Source: a virus
DNA: 61,951 nucleotides
IMG/VR virus record: IMGVR_UViG_3300017971_000301
Span: 1 to 61,951 of that record
Direction: 5' to 3' (one strand)
A program made the position numbers and the translations under genes. Each line of letters begins with the position of its first letter. The stretch's first letter is position 1. Below are positions 53,508 through 61,783 of the stretch, piece after piece. A model generated the notes under the pieces. It was not told where the DNA came from. It searched no databases and was given only the letters and a program-made list of their open reading frames with translations.

Positions 53508-53843
53508 ATGAATTTGGATCTTATGGAGCCCACCATTATCTCTGATGGAGAAACCATGACTCTGAGGTTGCCGGATGGAGCCACCTTTTCCTTCAAATTC
53601 ATCTTGCAACAAATGGATCTGAGGTCTTCTCCGGAAATACCCATAATGATGGATGATCCGAGTGGTTGGAAATCCACAGTTCTTGCTCCTCACCGATCAG
53701 CGGCCCTGTCAATTGAGATAGTCCCTACTGGACCGATTCTATATTCAGAGGGTGATGAAGATCCCACACCGATCGATCAGTTTGAAGGTGTTTCGGTTCT
53801 GGATCTGTTCAAAGCAATCAATCGAAAACTGGATAAAAGATGA
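53508..53843 (+). CDS. Hypothetical protein, 111 aa
   Basis: ATG 53508 follows AGGAGAGTTAG. A beta-rich N-terminus (TMTLRLPDGATFSFKF) is followed by an acidic helical C-terminus. Ends with a 4-base overlap with the helicase gene. No family recognised. Confidence 0.6.
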   Translation: MNLDLMEPTIISDGETMTLRLPDGATFSFKFILQQMDLRSSPEIPIMMDDPSGWKSTVLAPHRSAALSIEIVPTGPILYSEGDEDPTPIDQFEGVSVLDLFKAINRKLDKR

Positions 53844-55564
53844 AATACGAATTCAAGACTGAGCCCTATACCTTTCAACGTGAAGCCCTGAGACGAGGAT
53901 GGAACAAACCATTCTTCGGATATCTGATGGACCGGGGAACCGGGAAAACCAAAGTCACAATCGACAATGCCGGTATCCTCTTCACCCAAGACGCTGCCAT
54001 TCAGGGAATGTTGATAATTGCTCCAAACGAAGTTCATAATCGCTGGGTTACTGAACAAATCCCATTGCATTTGCCTGATTATATAAAAAGGAATGCCCAT
54101 GTCTGGGATAACAACAAAGCCAAGACCAAAAAGGGTAAGGCAGCATTGGAAACCCTGTTCGAACCATTCAATCCTGAGGATCCTATCTTACAGATCCTCT
54201 CAATGAATGTAGAAGCCTTCCAGACAGGCAATGCCAAAAACTTGGCTTATAACTTCTGCCGAGCACACCATGTCTTCTTAGTTGTGGATGAATCCACCAG
54301 AATCAAAACACCCAGCACGAAGAGAACTAAAGCTATTTTGAAGTTGACCAACATGGTTCCATATCGCCGAATTCTAACCGGGAATGATGTGACCCGGTCT
54401 CCGTTCGATGTGTTTTCTCAGTATCAGTTTCTTCATCACGACTTCTGGGGGAGTAAAAACTATTATTGGTTTCAGCAACGATATGCAGAATACGAGAAAC
54501 AGTACGCTTCAGTAAAGAAAACCAAGAACAGAATCAAGTGTCCCGAATGCAATAAGATTATTAATCTGGCGGTTGGTAGGTATTATAACAAAGCCCGAGC
54601 AATTTGGCAACATTTTTACAAGTGTCCTGAATGCCAGATTCAACTCACCTGGACACCGATCAAAAATCGAAAGGCCGGCCGAATGCACTATTTTTTACAC
54701 TTGGTTGGTAGTGATCGAAAGAGGGAGGTTTCAGATATAGCATTCATTCGAGAGCTTCGAGAAATCAACGAGAATCAAGGATTGCGGGAATACCCAAAGC
54801 TTCTATATTACAAGAATCTGGAAGAACTAAGAGCGAAGATTGCTCCCCACGTGTTTCGAATCCTGAAGAAAGATTGTATGGACTTGCCGGAGAAAATCTA
54901 TGCTCCTATTTATTGCGAAATGAATCAGGAACAAAGAACAGCCTACGAGGAGCTGAGGGATAACTTGTACACAGAGTATGAAGGGGAAGAATTGACAGTC
55001 GCCAATAAGATATCTCTAATGGTTAGGTTCCGGCAGATAGTGGGTGGTTTCTTTCCCGATACAGATCCCCCAAAACTTCTCGGAAACTCAAACCCCAAAA
55101 TGGATCGTCTGTTGTACGATCTGGAAGACATAGACGAGGAGGCCATTATTATTTGGTCTGTATTCACGGCCGAACTAAAATTCATCAGTAAAACTTTAAG
55201 GAAGAAATATCCCGATGAAACAACAGCCTTGTATTACGGAAATACTAAAAAGTCTGATCGTAAACAGATCATCGATGCTTTCCAGAAAGGACAGATTCGT
55301 TTTCTTGTTGCGAATCCTGCCACGGCTGGTACTGGACTTAATCTACAACGGTCTACTTTGCACTATTATTTTTCTGACTCCTTCCGACTCGAAGATAGAT
55401 GGCAATCAGAAGATCGATCACATCGTCGAGGCCAAGTTAACCATGTTGTTTATAAGGACATTATTATCAAAGGAACCATTGACGATACGATCAGGAAGTC
55501 TCGAGAAACAAAAACAGAAATAGCGGACTTCTTCAGGGAATACAAGATTGAGGATTTGGTATAA
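53840..55564 (+). CDS. Snf2/Swi2-type superfamily 2 helicase with inserted zinc ribbon, 574 aa
   Basis: Motif I LMDRGTGKTKV near residue 30, motif II VVDEST near 155, motif III ILTGND, and motif VI EDRSHRRGQ near 530 place it in the Snf2-like/DEAH group common in phage replication modules. Two CPEC knuckles around residues 235 and 267 form a zinc ribbon inserted between the RecA lobes. It probably remodels or unwinds DNA during replication or recombination. Confidence 0.9.
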   Translation: MKYEFKTEPYTFQREALRRGWNKPFFGYLMDRGTGKTKVTIDNAGILFTQDAAIQGMLIIAPNEVHNRWVTEQIPLHLPDYIKRNAHVWDNNKAKTKKGKAALETLFEPFNPEDPILQILSMNVEAFQTGNAKNLAYNFCRAHHVFLVVDESTRIKTPSTKRTKAILKLTNMVPYRRILTGNDVTRSPFDVFSQYQFLHHDFWGSKNYYWFQQRYAEYEKQYASVKKTKNRIKCPECNKIINLAVGRYYNKARAIWQHFYKCPECQIQLTWTPIKNRKAGRMHYFLHLVGSDRKREVSDIAFIRELREINENQGLREYPKLLYYKNLEELRAKIAPHVFRILKKDCMDLPEKIYAPIYCEMNQEQRTAYEELRDNLYTEYEGEELTVANKISLMVRFRQIVGGFFPDTDPPKLLGNSNPKMDRLLYDLEDIDEEAIIIWSVFTAELKFISKTLRKKYPDETTALYYGNTKKSDRKQIIDAFQKGQIRFLVANPATAGTGLNLQRSTLHYYFSDSFRLEDRWQSEDRSHRRGQVNHVVYKDIIIKGTIDDTIRKSRETKTEIADFFREYKIEDLV

Positions 55565-55765
55565 GTGGATTATTCTGATTGTTCTGTTTGTGTGTTTGAC
55601 CAAGCAGAGGAACAACTCAAACTCACCAAGAACATATGGAAGGAGGAATTAATCAAAACAGATCCAAACAACGAATACCTCGCCATGGCCATTACTATCG
55701 ACGAAGGCAAAAGAGCAGTTATAATCAAACGCTACAAACTCTTCAACAAAAGGAGATCACTTTGA
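55565..55765 (+). CDS. Small chimeric hypothetical protein, 66 aa
   Basis: GTG 55565 directly follows the helicase stop, with GAGGATTTGG upstream. The first about 16 codons have ordinary T-rich phage composition; after that the coding strand turns C-rich and T-poor (from about 55612), as in the next two frames. It may be a fusion of a resident start with imported sequence. No known motif. Confidence 0.5.
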   Translation: MDYSDCSVCVFDQAEEQLKLTKNIWKEELIKTDPNNEYLAMAITIDEGKRAVIIKRYKLFNKRRSL

Positions 55766-55911
55766 AACCAGAACAATTCCTCAAACTCATCAAAGTCTTG
55801 TGGACAATCTTATATCCAACCATCGAGAAACACGTCACCGACAGCAAAAACCCTTATGACAACCTCATACTAGACATCCTCGACAAAATCATCATGAAGG
55901 GCAACATCTAA
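55762..55911 (+). CDS. Small helical protein, 49 aa, TTG start, possible microvirus origin
   Basis: TTG 55762 overlaps the previous TGA and follows AAAAGGAGATCACT, so the ribosome-binding site decides the unusual start. The product (start LKPEQFLKLIKVLWTIL) is amphipathic or weakly hydrophobic, then NPYDNLILDILDKIIMKG. It shares the C-rich composition of the microvirus-like fragment that follows and ends one base before it, suggesting a common source. Function unknown. Confidence 0.5.
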   Translation: MKPEQFLKLIKVLWTILYPTIEKHVTDSKNPYDNLILDILDKIIMKGNI

Positions 55912-56075
55912 TGAAAACCAACAAATTCAGTCTATCCCACTACAAACTACTCATCGGCAACATGGGCAGGCTCATCCCGATCGCCTGCATCGAAGTACTC
56001 CCAGGCGACATCTTTCAACACCGAACCAACATTACGATCAGAATAGATTGCGATTGGAAATTACCATGGAAATAA
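55911..56075 (+). pseudogene. Truncated N-terminus of a Microviridae major capsid protein (VP1), 54 codons
   Basis: The residues FSLSHYKLLIGNMGRLIPIA followed by CIEVLPGDIFQHRTNITIRI reproduce the hallmark opening of ssDNA microvirus (gokushovirus-type) VP1: F-x-LSH-x-K, MG-x-LIPI, EVLPGD-x-F-x-H-x-T, then an R. A full VP1 is about 500-600 residues; here the match ends after about 45 residues and a stop follows, so it is a fragment. The surrounding 430 bases are C-rich on this strand, unlike the neighbours. No capsid role is possible in this form. Origin by recombination with a microvirus is inferred. Confidence 0.8.
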
Positions 56076-56320
56076 TCAAACTAGAACTGATCATATTAAT
56101 TATGGTCTGGATATTGATTGGAGTTTATCTAGTATGGTATTTCCATTATATTTTACTTAGAAAGGAGACAAGTAATGAACGGCAGAAAAACGAAACAGCT
56201 CAGACATCAGATGAACATATCGCATCCTATACATGCACCTTGGCAATGGCGATTGAAGAAGAAACAAGCGACGAAGGAAAACAAACCATCGACAGTTCCT
56301 CAGACTGCGGCCAGAATTAG
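56066..56320 (+). CDS. Small single-pass membrane protein, 84 aa
   Basis: A very hydrophobic N-terminus (LELIILIMVWILIGVYLVW) is followed by a charged tail. ATG 56066 lacks a strong ribosome-binding site and its 3' half overlaps the next gene in another frame. Possible membrane protein; the support is moderate. Confidence 0.4.
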   Translation: MEIIKLELIILIMVWILIGVYLVWYFHYILLRKETSNERQKNETAQTSDEHIASYTCTLAMAIEEETSDEGKQTIDSSSDCGQN

Positions 56321-56960
56321 CAAGAAAAGGCATTCATGGGAGAGTCGACAAGATTTCAAAAAGCGACGAACAGTTTCGAACGATCGCCGACGAACCAGAG
56401 AAAAGGCTATTAGAATATTCGGGACTTTGATCGCTGCTATATTTTTGTTCATACTTGCAGGATGCGCCGGTTGGTCTATCAACGGGATTACCCTCCAGGA
56501 AATAGATGAAAGTTCTACTTCCAACCGACTGGTTATGCTTGCTGGAGTGGCCACTTCTTTCGGGACCCATTTCGCAGGTCACGCAGTCTATTATGAATTG
56601 AATAATATTGACTGGCGATTGGAAGGATTCTCTGAAATGATCCTGAACGAGGGTGAACTATCAGAATCTCAAAGAGAAAACTGCGGGCGGGCCGGCTTCA
56701 TATCCCAATTGGCAATTGGGGTTCTCCTAAAGACATTTGCAAAAGATAACCCGTTTACTACTGGATATCTAGTGGGAACTACGATTGAGATCTGGGGATA
56801 TCCCCTTACTGTGCGAACTGAGGGCGCCATAGATTGGATGAACAGTGAGAGTGAATGGGTAATATACAGCACTATTGCTGGTTTCTTACTAATCGACAAG
56901 GAGGCAAACGATGCCACTTGGTGCCCGCTAGAGGATGCAGACGATGGCGAAGATACTTAA
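56175..56960 (+). CDS. Membrane-anchored hypothetical protein, 261 aa
   Basis: ATG 56175 follows AAAGGAGACAAGTA. A very basic first 75 residues precede a single membrane helix ending in a lipobox-like LAGC (near residue 97). The remainder has a histidine-containing helix (FGTHFAGHAVYY) and further hydrophobic segments. The final residues (ATWCPLEDADD) duplicate the WCPLEDA ending of the adjacent gene product, suggesting that a piece of that gene was fused on. Function unknown. Confidence 0.6.
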   Translation: MNGRKTKQLRHQMNISHPIHAPWQWRLKKKQATKENKPSTVPQTAARISKKRHSWESRQDFKKRRTVSNDRRRTREKAIRIFGTLIAAIFLFILAGCAGWSINGITLQEIDESSTSNRLVMLAGVATSFGTHFAGHAVYYELNNIDWRLEGFSEMILNEGELSESQRENCGRAGFISQLAIGVLLKTFAKDNPFTTGYLVGTTIEIWGYPLTVRTEGAIDWMNSESEWVIYSTIAGFLLIDKEANDATWCPLEDADDGEDT

Positions 56961-57204
56961 AATTGACCGATGTGTTGATTGTTCGTACTATTTCTCTGGC
57001 AAGGCTAATATCGATAATGTTTGGATTACCCTTACACGATTATGGCAATGCCACCATCCCGCCATCGGCAATAGAGACACCGTCGAACCGCATAGGATGA
57101 TACAAGAATGGTGTCCGCTAGAGGATGCCCCGGAGGAAATGGAAGAAGAGAAACAGAACCCTACGAAAATTCGAGATAAAAATGAAATCAACAATCCTTT
57201 GTGA
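56944..57204 (+). CDS. Small cysteine-rich phage protein with WCPLEDA motif, 86 aa
   Basis: ATG 56944 follows AGAGGATGCAGACG. RCVDCSYYF, LWQCHHPA and EWCPLEDAPEE give the C-x2-C...C...C arrangement seen in numerous small uncharacterised phage proteins, probably a zinc site. It overlaps both neighbours. Confidence 0.6.
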   Translation: MAKILKIDRCVDCSYYFSGKANIDNVWITLTRLWQCHHPAIGNRDTVEPHRMIQEWCPLEDAPEEMEEEKQNPTKIRDKNEINNPL

Positions 57205-57565
57205 AGCCGGCGAAGACCTTGAAAAAAGGGATGGTATTATGGAAGAGGTTGTACAATCGCATATGTTCAGTAAGGTAGTTCGTTGTAGGGAGAAAAGGGC
57301 CGAGGGAAGAAAACCTCGATCGGGTCGATTTTATGGTTTAGTTCGAATTGGGGATCTGGATTGGGCTATTGTCAAATGGAACAAAGACCAAGCTCCTTCT
57401 CTCCAGGTTTCCGATCAAATCAGAATCGAGGTTCAGCGCTGGGAAGACCCGCCGATCGTTATTCCCGAGAATACAGACCGGTTCGCCAGTGTAGAAGATG
57501 TAGACCTAACCATGGGGGATGTTCAGGAAGAATTTGTGCCGGGCGTTCCTTGTGAATCGGCTTAA
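57182..57565 (+). CDS. Hypothetical protein, 127 aa
   Basis: ATG 57182 (MKSTILCEAGEDLEK) is used; the frame opens earlier but inside the previous gene, and an internal ATG at 57239 with AAGGG is another candidate. The middle is beta-rich (GRFYGLVRIGDLDWAIVKW), like a small OB or SH3 fold. No family recognised. Confidence 0.55.
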   Translation: MKSTILCEAGEDLEKRDGIMEEVVQSHMFSKVVRCREKRAEGRKPRSGRFYGLVRIGDLDWAIVKWNKDQAPSLQVSDQIRIEVQRWEDPPIVIPENTDRFASVEDVDLTMGDVQEEFVPGVPCESA

Positions 57566-57615
57566 GGGGGAACCATTTATATTGGTAGAAATTAGCTTAG
57601 ATTAAGGAGGGAATT

Positions 57616-59808: not shown

Positions 59809-59852
59809 TGCTGAATCTGATTTGATCTTCAATTAAATTGAGCGGGATTGTT

Positions 59853-61337
59853 ATGAAGTTTTCTTCGCTATTCAAAGGCAGGGATGACGCCTATGGTGTT
59901 TACCTGATTGAGAAAGGGTCGAAGAAGAAGGTTCAGGGACGAGCCTTTACAAAAACCGAGCCCTTGACCGAACAGCATTATAAGGATCACTTATCAGGGA
60001 AAACAGGTCTAGGCGTCATCCCTATCATGTCTGATAATACATGTTTGTGGGGAGCAATAGATGTAGACGATTACAAAGCTCCCCTGGAAACTCTCAGTAA
60101 ACAAGTGGAGGGGATGGAACTTCCGCTTGTTTTGTGTCGCAGCAAATCCGGAGGAGCACACCTTTATTTGTTCCTGAAAAACCCAATTCCCGCTGTTTTA
60201 CTTAGAGATAAACTGTTTGAGTTTGCCGCGGCAATTGGGTATCCCAATTCTGAATTGTTCCCGAAACAGGTTGAGTTTGAATCAGATGATGAAGTTGGCA
60301 ATTGGATTAATCTGCCATACTTCGATGAGGAACGAACAACTCGTTATGCTTTGAAAGATGGAAAACCTTTAGATCTAAAACAGTTTTTGAAGTATGCCGG
60401 GCAAAAGGTAGTCACTGAAGAAGATTTGAAGAACTTTGAATTAAAGCTGGTTGATGGATTAGAAGATGCTCCTCCGTGTTTACAATACTTGGCAACGATT
60501 GGGATTACGGCAGGGCAAAAGGATTCTTGCCTATTCAATTTCGCTGTATATTGCAAGCTGAAGGACAAAGATAATTGGGAAAAGAATCTTGAAACAATCA
60601 ACCAGACTTATGTTAAGCCGCCGGCGAGGGCTGAGACAATATTAAAGGTTGTCAAGCCACACAGGAAGAAATCTTATTTCTATACGTGTGAACAGTCCCC
60701 GCTTAAGGATTATTGTAATCGAGAGTTGTGTTTAGCACGTCTATTTGGGATTGGTCAATCTGACAAAGAACCAAAGATAAAGTTAGGGCTCCTACGGAAA
60801 GTGGAAACCGAACCGCCGGTTTGGTATTTGGAAGTTGAAGGAACTGAATTGGAATTCCAGACAAAGGATTTGCTGGATCAGTTTAGATTTCGAAGGATTT
60901 GTTTTGAACGGATTCACCTTATTCCACCGACCCTGAAACCGGTCACATGGGATCGAATGCTTCAAGAACGATTAGATAAAGTGGAACGAATCGAGGCTCC
61001 AGAGGATGCTGGTCCTGAGGGACAGTTTAGGTTTCATTTGCAAAATTTTTGTACGATTGGGGTATCTGATGAAAAGGACGGATTACTTCGTGGACGACCC
61101 TGGACTGATGAAGAGAACAACTTAACTCATTTCGTTTCTGGTGATTTAATTAGATATTTGAACAGTAAGAAATTTTATCAATTTCCTGTTCACGAGGTCT
61201 ATGCTAACATCAGAAAACTAGAAGGTAAGAATAAAGTCCTGCGGATTAAAGGGAAAACGATTCGAGTCTGGTCGGTCCCGATATTCGAAAAACAAACCGA
61301 GGAGTTTGACTTGCCAGATATGGAGGACCCATTCTAA
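59853..61337 (+). CDS. Archaeo-eukaryotic-type primase (TOTE-like), 494 aa
   Basis: WGAIDVDDYKAPLETL with CRSKSGGAHLYLFL and NWINLPYFD are the catalytic and nucleotide-binding blocks of AEP-superfamily primases found in phages and mobile elements. A cysteine segment, YTCEQSPLKDYCNRELC, may bind zinc. The C-terminus MEDPF again resembles an SSB tip. ATG 59853 is used; a TTG 15 bases earlier has a weaker context. It makes primers for the PolA enzyme. Confidence 0.8.
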   Translation: MKFSSLFKGRDDAYGVYLIEKGSKKKVQGRAFTKTEPLTEQHYKDHLSGKTGLGVIPIMSDNTCLWGAIDVDDYKAPLETLSKQVEGMELPLVLCRSKSGGAHLYLFLKNPIPAVLLRDKLFEFAAAIGYPNSELFPKQVEFESDDEVGNWINLPYFDEERTTRYALKDGKPLDLKQFLKYAGQKVVTEEDLKNFELKLVDGLEDAPPCLQYLATIGITAGQKDSCLFNFAVYCKLKDKDNWEKNLETINQTYVKPPARAETILKVVKPHRKKSYFYTCEQSPLKDYCNRELCLARLFGIGQSDKEPKIKLGLLRKVETEPPVWYLEVEGTELEFQTKDLLDQFRFRRICFERIHLIPPTLKPVTWDRMLQERLDKVERIEAPEDAGPEGQFRFHLQNFCTIGVSDEKDGLLRGRPWTDEENNLTHFVSGDLIRYLNSKKFYQFPVHEVYANIRKLEGKNKVLRIKGKTIRVWSVPIFEKQTEEFDLPDMEDPF

Positions 61338-61783
61338 TGGAATATGTCGTTGGATTTGCGTTCAGTAAGAATCGAAAGAATGTTCTTTTGATATGTAAGA
61401 ATCGTCCTGAATGGCAGAAGGGTTGCTTGAATGGGATTGGTGGAAAAGTCGAAGACGACCCAACTTTTCTTGCAGCAATGAACCGGGAGTGTTTGGAAGA
61501 AACAGGATTAATTCTGAATTGGCAACAAAAGGGAATAATGAAAGGTCGGAATGATGATGGAAAACATTTTGTCTGTCATATCTTCTATGCCTATTCAGAT
61601 GATATTTACAAATATCAACAAAAGGAAGACGAAGAATTAGAAATATGGTCGGTTCATGATTTTCTTGAATCAGTTGCTCAACGTGTAACTAATTTGAACT
61701 GGCTTATTCCCTTTGGGATACACGAAGAGAACCGGGTATTCATGGAACTGGATTATGGGCTCTCGAATCGTTACTACGAATGA
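61337..61783 (+). CDS. NUDIX hydrolase, 148 aa
   Basis: GIGGKVEDDPTFLAAMNREC with LEETGL is a Nudix box, with the REUxEExGU core intact but Pro in the place of the first conserved Glu. It hydrolyses nucleoside diphosphate derivatives such as oxidised or modified dNTPs. The start overlaps the primase stop by 1 base. In a phage with modified nucleotides it could clean or trim the dNTP pool. Confidence 0.8.
   Translation: MEYVVGFAFSKNRKNVLLICKNRPEWQKGCLNGIGGKVEDDPTFLAAMNRECLEETGLILNWQQKGIMKGRNDDGKHFVCHIFYAYSDDIYKYQQKEDEELEIWSVHDFLESVAQRVTNLNWLIPFGIHEENRVFMELDYGLSNRYYE

Follow-up and report, generated by a model that had tools for sequence, protein, structure and literature searches.

Microvirus DNA within other genomes

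Fragments of microvirus genes have been described within larger genomes before, and the IMG/VR virus record IMGVR_UViG_3300017971_000301 (61,951 bases; "the window" below denotes this whole stretch of DNA) carries among the genes of a tailed phage the end of a microvirus VP4 (Rep) gene, a small open reading frame (ORF) and the start of a microvirus major capsid protein gene (VP1). The nearest precedent is the set of gokushovirus gene fragments in Chlamydia chromosomes cited by Krupovic and Forterre 2011 (PMC3091885). There, too, parts of microvirus genes have been taken up by a larger genome unrelated to them, but the recipient is a bacterial chromosome and not a double-stranded DNA (dsDNA) tailed virus. 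The Bacteroidetes microvirus proviruses (BMV; PMC3091885) also represent microvirus DNA inside another genome; unlike the sub-genomic fragment found here in a phage, they are whole proviruses that reside in chromosomes and have dif-like sites. According to Kirchberger et al. 2022 (PMC9239249), microviruses rarely, if ever, swap genes across families or with hosts, and their gene uptake is limited to peptidases and methyltransferases. The exchange described there resembles ours in involving microviruses (inter-microvirus recombination, and peptidase and methyltransferase genes common to dsDNA phages), but there accessory genes enter microviruses, whereas here pieces of core genes leave a microvirus for a tailed phage. 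A search of one open-access literature library did not turn up any description of pieces of microvirus core genes in a tailed phage, which does not prove novelty. Captured virus gene fragments are already known; here the capture would run across two realms.

The arrangement of the insert is closest to the junction between VP4 and VP1 in those environmental microviruses that have Rep immediately ahead of VP1 (e.g., Apis mellifera associated microviruses and IMG/VR records L012-L091). Shared with these are a Rep end followed by a VP1 start, overlapping stop and start codons, and VP1 residues 1-45, the DNA of the VP1 fragment being at most 75% identical to microvirus DNA over 99 nt. In contrast to them, only gene ends are present here, an ORF of 49 amino acids (aa) lies between these ends, and the whole is embedded in a 62-kb tailed phage.

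A VP1 start and a Rep end in one foreign block

The ORF at 55911-56075 on the plus strand encodes 54 aa (MKTNKFSLSHYKLLIGNMGRLIPIACIEVLPGDIFQHRTNITIRIDCDWKLPWK, followed by a stop). The initial annotation had read it as the opening of VP1, and all three motifs quoted in support are present, with SLSHYK, LIPI and EVLPGD retained. Profile and homology searches against VP1 agreed with that reading: Pfam PF02305 (Phage_F) matched residues 4-45 to profile positions 11-52 (E=5.7e-6, 25.8 bits at a cut-off of 25; 22.1 bits, just below the cut-off, in a six-frame search), PHROG 514 (major head protein) matched residues 1-45 (E=4.3e-11), and tblastn against 2.3 Gb of phage DNA retrieved the starts of microvirus VP1 proteins, 55-62% identical (best E=2e-12). 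Homology ends at codon 44-45, close to where the initial annotation had placed the break, and is followed by nine unrelated codons and a stop; no VP1 continuation was detectable downstream of 56045. A complete jelly-roll VP1 has ~480-500 aa, and only 45 homologous residues of ~490 are found here; judged from its sequence, the ORF is therefore a capsid-protein fragment and not a capsid protein.

The initial annotation had recognized the VP1 third of the insert and missed the Rep end upstream of it; the whole foreign segment measures ~440 bp. For comparison, ~80 related microviruses were taken from IMG/VR, together with several annotated ones. In most of 85 microviruses the Rep stop overlaps the VP1 ATG or lies within a few bases of it (apparent gaps in L014, L058 and L080 reflect terminal repeats of the records and circular joining), and the order and spacing of the insert therefore fit, apart from the extra 49-aa ORF. 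A hidden Markov model (HMM) built from the Rep C-termini of 54 microviruses and run on 727 window ORFs gave one significant match, the ORF at 55565-55765 (18.0 bits, E=1.5e-4), a figure weakened somewhat by the choice of this ORF by eye before the test but standing well clear of the controls, as none of 20,000 shuffles (best 12.7) and none of 4,277 tailed-phage small ORFs (best 9.4) reached it. The alignment extends to the C-terminal end of both profile and ORF, and the ORF ends in AVIIKRYKLFNKRRSL before its stop, resembling many Rep C-termini (e.g., RRVQERKQKIFNRRSSL in L052). What is present is thus a C-terminal region resembling Rep that ends next to VP1, 54 of ~300-350 Rep residues. No HUH endonuclease domain was found, the DNA upstream of 55601 being phage helicase with no Rep match. 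Being partial, the Rep piece cannot function as a replication protein, nor the VP1 piece as a capsid.

Between the two pieces, the 49-aa ORF overlaps both of its neighbors, the Rep stop with its start (TTGA) and the VP1 start with its stop (TAATG). Searches of phages, IMG/VR, microviruses, Pfam and PHROGs yielded no relative of this ORF; among the microviruses compared, L067 alone carries a small ORF at this position, and it is unrelated.

The three ORFs lie in different frames and have a common codon signature, with A+C at third positions of 0.81 overall and T of 0.07. Among the phage's larger ORFs, no stretch of 147 codons exceeds an A/C value of 0.61; the related microviruses L027, L047 and L062 reach 0.69-0.72. 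At an A+C content of 0.67, the segment is the most extreme 445-bp stretch in the window, and its borders by composition (55599-56031) agree with those by homology (~55601-56045). Because composition and codon bias mark the ~440-bp piece throughout, it is by these measures one foreign block. The pieces of Rep and VP1 are truncated at both ends and do not continue beyond the segment, and nothing beyond noise was found among further microvirus genes sought elsewhere in the window. An integrated provirus with a complete VP1, VP2 and VP4 set is not present, as the window holds no other microvirus-like ORF.

Table 1. Features in and around the insert (window coordinates)
Feature	Position	Strand	Evidence or remark
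DNA helicase gene, tailed-phage	53840..55564	+	PHROG 62 E=6e-96; full-length homologue with the same neighbors in L007
66-aa ORF; residues 13-66 (~55601-55765) match the microvirus VP4/Rep C-terminal end	55565..55765	+	Rep C-terminal HMM
Inverted repeat, left arm, imperfect (17/21), at left insert edge	55571..55591	+	Repeat search
Composition island, A+C rich	55599..56031	.	Maximum-scoring A+C segment; delimits the segment independently of homology
49-aa ORF, TTG start	55762..55911	+	Third-position C 0.54, T 0.06; no detectable relative
VP1 start, first 45 codons of microvirus major capsid protein	55911..56045	+	Pfam, PHROG, tblastn, IMG/VR alignment scan
Inverted repeat, right arm, ending exactly at last VP1-homologous codon	56025..56045	+	Repeat search
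Non-homologous tail DCDWKLPWK and stop, truncating the VP1 frame	56046..56075	+	Translation; VP1 does not resume downstream

The recipient phage

The window is clearly a tailed phage, as the initial annotation had held. One side carries genes for terminase, portal, head morphogenesis, tape measure and tail fiber, and the opposite side those for helicases, ThyX, Pam3 gp33/gp34-like proteins and a primase. The terminase large subunit (PHROG 38, E=3e-81), portal (PHROG 146, E=5e-62) and tape measure (PHROG 339, E=2e-80) place it among the tailed dsDNA phages (Caudoviricetes), most likely as a siphovirus-like phage. The helicase gene directly precedes the insert, its TAA being followed at once by the GTG of ORF 55565-55765. 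Helicase, gp34-like gene, primase and second helicase have the same order and direction in a relative, L007, and since gene order is kept there on both sides, both flanks come from a single phage type. The space that follows the helicase measures 3,441 bp in the window and 934 bp in L007, where it contains small genes. The insert lies in an accessory slot, immediately after the stop codon of the helicase.

Positions 55765-57600, between helicase and ThyX, hold a run of small ORFs with no family matches, including a 261-aa membrane-type ORF (56175-56960); this slot is an accessory-gene hotspot. At the ends of the window lie a primase (right, 59838-61783) and a helicase (left, 37-1416). As these genes adjoin in relatives L007-L010, the window probably represents an almost complete phage genome that is circularly permuted and was opened at an arbitrary position, even though terminal repeats were not found in it.

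Origin of the insert

The homology of the insert, its gene order, its foreign composition and its tailed-phage context are direct observations, and recombination between a microvirus and a tailed phage, as suggested in the initial annotation, is the reading best supported by the VP1 homology (itself not in doubt), the Rep end in its correct order, the foreign block and the tailed-phage flanks. We propose, with a probability of roughly two-thirds (0.66), that the ~440-bp piece entered the tailed phage by recent illegitimate recombination in a co-infected cell and is now a passenger. A microvirus and the tailed phage would have met in one host cell, where replicative-form or single-stranded microvirus DNA may have been captured during tailed-phage replication. 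The end of VP4/Rep, the small ORF and the VP1 start would thereby have been inserted between the helicase gene and the next accessory genes, and transcription of the helicase gene probably runs on through the pieces, which the phage would tolerate as passengers within the accessory-gene slot. The intact codon bias of the donor argues for a fairly recent event, and the departure of the VP1 fragment at the otherwise invariant R3 and T/S15 argues for a divergent donor or, possibly, some relaxation. VP1 similarity was compared with Rep similarity across the microviruses to name the donor lineage; the two did not correlate and no donor was identified.

Several observations weigh against this origin. 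The insert is known from a single metagenomic contig, and no close relative of the phage, with or without the insert, was found. The Rep C-terminus is by itself a weak match, and the 49-aa ORF has no microvirus homologue. The VP1 fragment deviates at R3 and T/S15, which do not vary among 84 relatives; had a functional VP1 been transferred very recently, such deviations would not be expected unless the donor was divergent. A contig with two microviruses in IMG/VR (L020) indicates that chimeric assembly with microvirus DNA may occur.

The edges of the insert carry an inverted repeat flanked externally by GAT on each side. Of the interval pairs in the window that have the same spacing, only about 0.2% match as well (p ~0.002), in a comparison made after the repeat had been noticed, and the repeat is possibly a scar of the joining event. 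Transposon ends were considered as another identity for it and set aside, the repeat being suggestive only and a transposase not having been sought in detail. At positions 55571-55600, the reverse complement of the left arm encodes TNRTIRI, where the VP1 end has TNITIRI. The stretch is also rich in T+G, as expected of an inverted copy of the insert; it could be a fold-back scar.

Conservation of the VP1 fragment in related tailed phages, raised in the initial annotation, was not seen: none of 50 relatives carries a Phage_F match or VP1 fragment. In two IMG/VR alignment scans, nearly all of the best 80 matches were contigs of microvirus size, the plasmids searched contained no carrier, and the bacterial genomes searched gave two matches: L092, a contig consisting of a microvirus alone, and L093, a mixed one. 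Positions 598-8254 of L020 (IMGVR_UViG_3300020043_007355, 11,306 bp) comprise two different microviruses in tandem, with two pilot-Rep-VP1 sets and different VP1 proteins; this contig is either an assembly chimera or a natural cointegrate. Positions 170-8286 of L093 (contig JAPPOO010000004.1 of a GTDB metagenome-assembled genome, 17,225 bp) encode a full VP1, a further ORF and a DNA pilot protein, and genes of another element on the opposite strand encode an SLT transglycosylase, DUF736 and tail-fiber-like proteins. L093 is a chimera or a real composite, and a second candidate for microvirus DNA joined to phage-like DNA.

Microviruses are over-amplified by whole-genome amplification, and abundant microvirus DNA of the same sample could have been joined into a tailed-phage contig during assembly or amplification. 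Only one contig carries the insert, L020 from the same collection and L093 offer comparable joins, and the inverted repeat at the borders could be a template-switch scar. However, a short internal insert requires two independent misjoins in a phage whose flank order is confirmed by L007, no identical or near-identical microvirus was found in the searched collections (best 66% aa), and the VP1 fragment departs from invariant positions. We therefore regard an artifact of this kind as unlikely.

Somewhat less likely again is that the microvirus pieces have been kept for a function, the VP1 N-terminal arm (perhaps with the Rep tail) serving as a decoy or dominant-negative peptide against capsid assembly or replication of co-infecting microviruses. 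All three are open frames, closely linked to the helicase gene through the adjoining GTG and the TTGA and TAATG overlaps, the core VP1 motifs are kept, and the segment lies within an accessory slot among small ORFs. Open frames are, however, also expected after a recent transfer, and no relatives were found that could show selection. The 54-aa peptide alone has no confident AlphaFold fold (pLDDT, the predicted local distance difference test score, of 46 from a single sequence), and its score falls at the low end among 84 VP1 starts, with invariant positions changed. The furthest form of this idea, doubtful on present evidence, is that the tailed phage expresses the captured Rep end and VP1 start from the helicase operon as an interference peptide against competing single-stranded DNA microviruses, which would amount to a cross-realm, virus-derived defense. 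That an ordinary small phage ORF should resemble VP1 by chance, an idea for which only the shortness of the ORF speaks, is rejected as very improbable given the tblastn match in 2.3 Gb of phage DNA, the agreement of two independent profile libraries (Pfam and PHROG), the adjoining end of a second microvirus gene, the foreign codon usage and the lack of Phage_F matches in the 50 tailed relatives.

Implications

Recombination in a co-infected cell, our preferred origin for the insert, would join viruses of different realms, as microviruses belong to Monodnaviria and tailed phages to Duplodnaviria, and DNA exchange of this kind is very rarely seen. If the insert is real, core microvirus genes can enter a tailed phage, and an uncultured microvirus and an uncultured tailed phage would have met in one cell, providing a host link without culture. 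It would also make it possible to test if capsid fragments acquired in this way hinder competitors.
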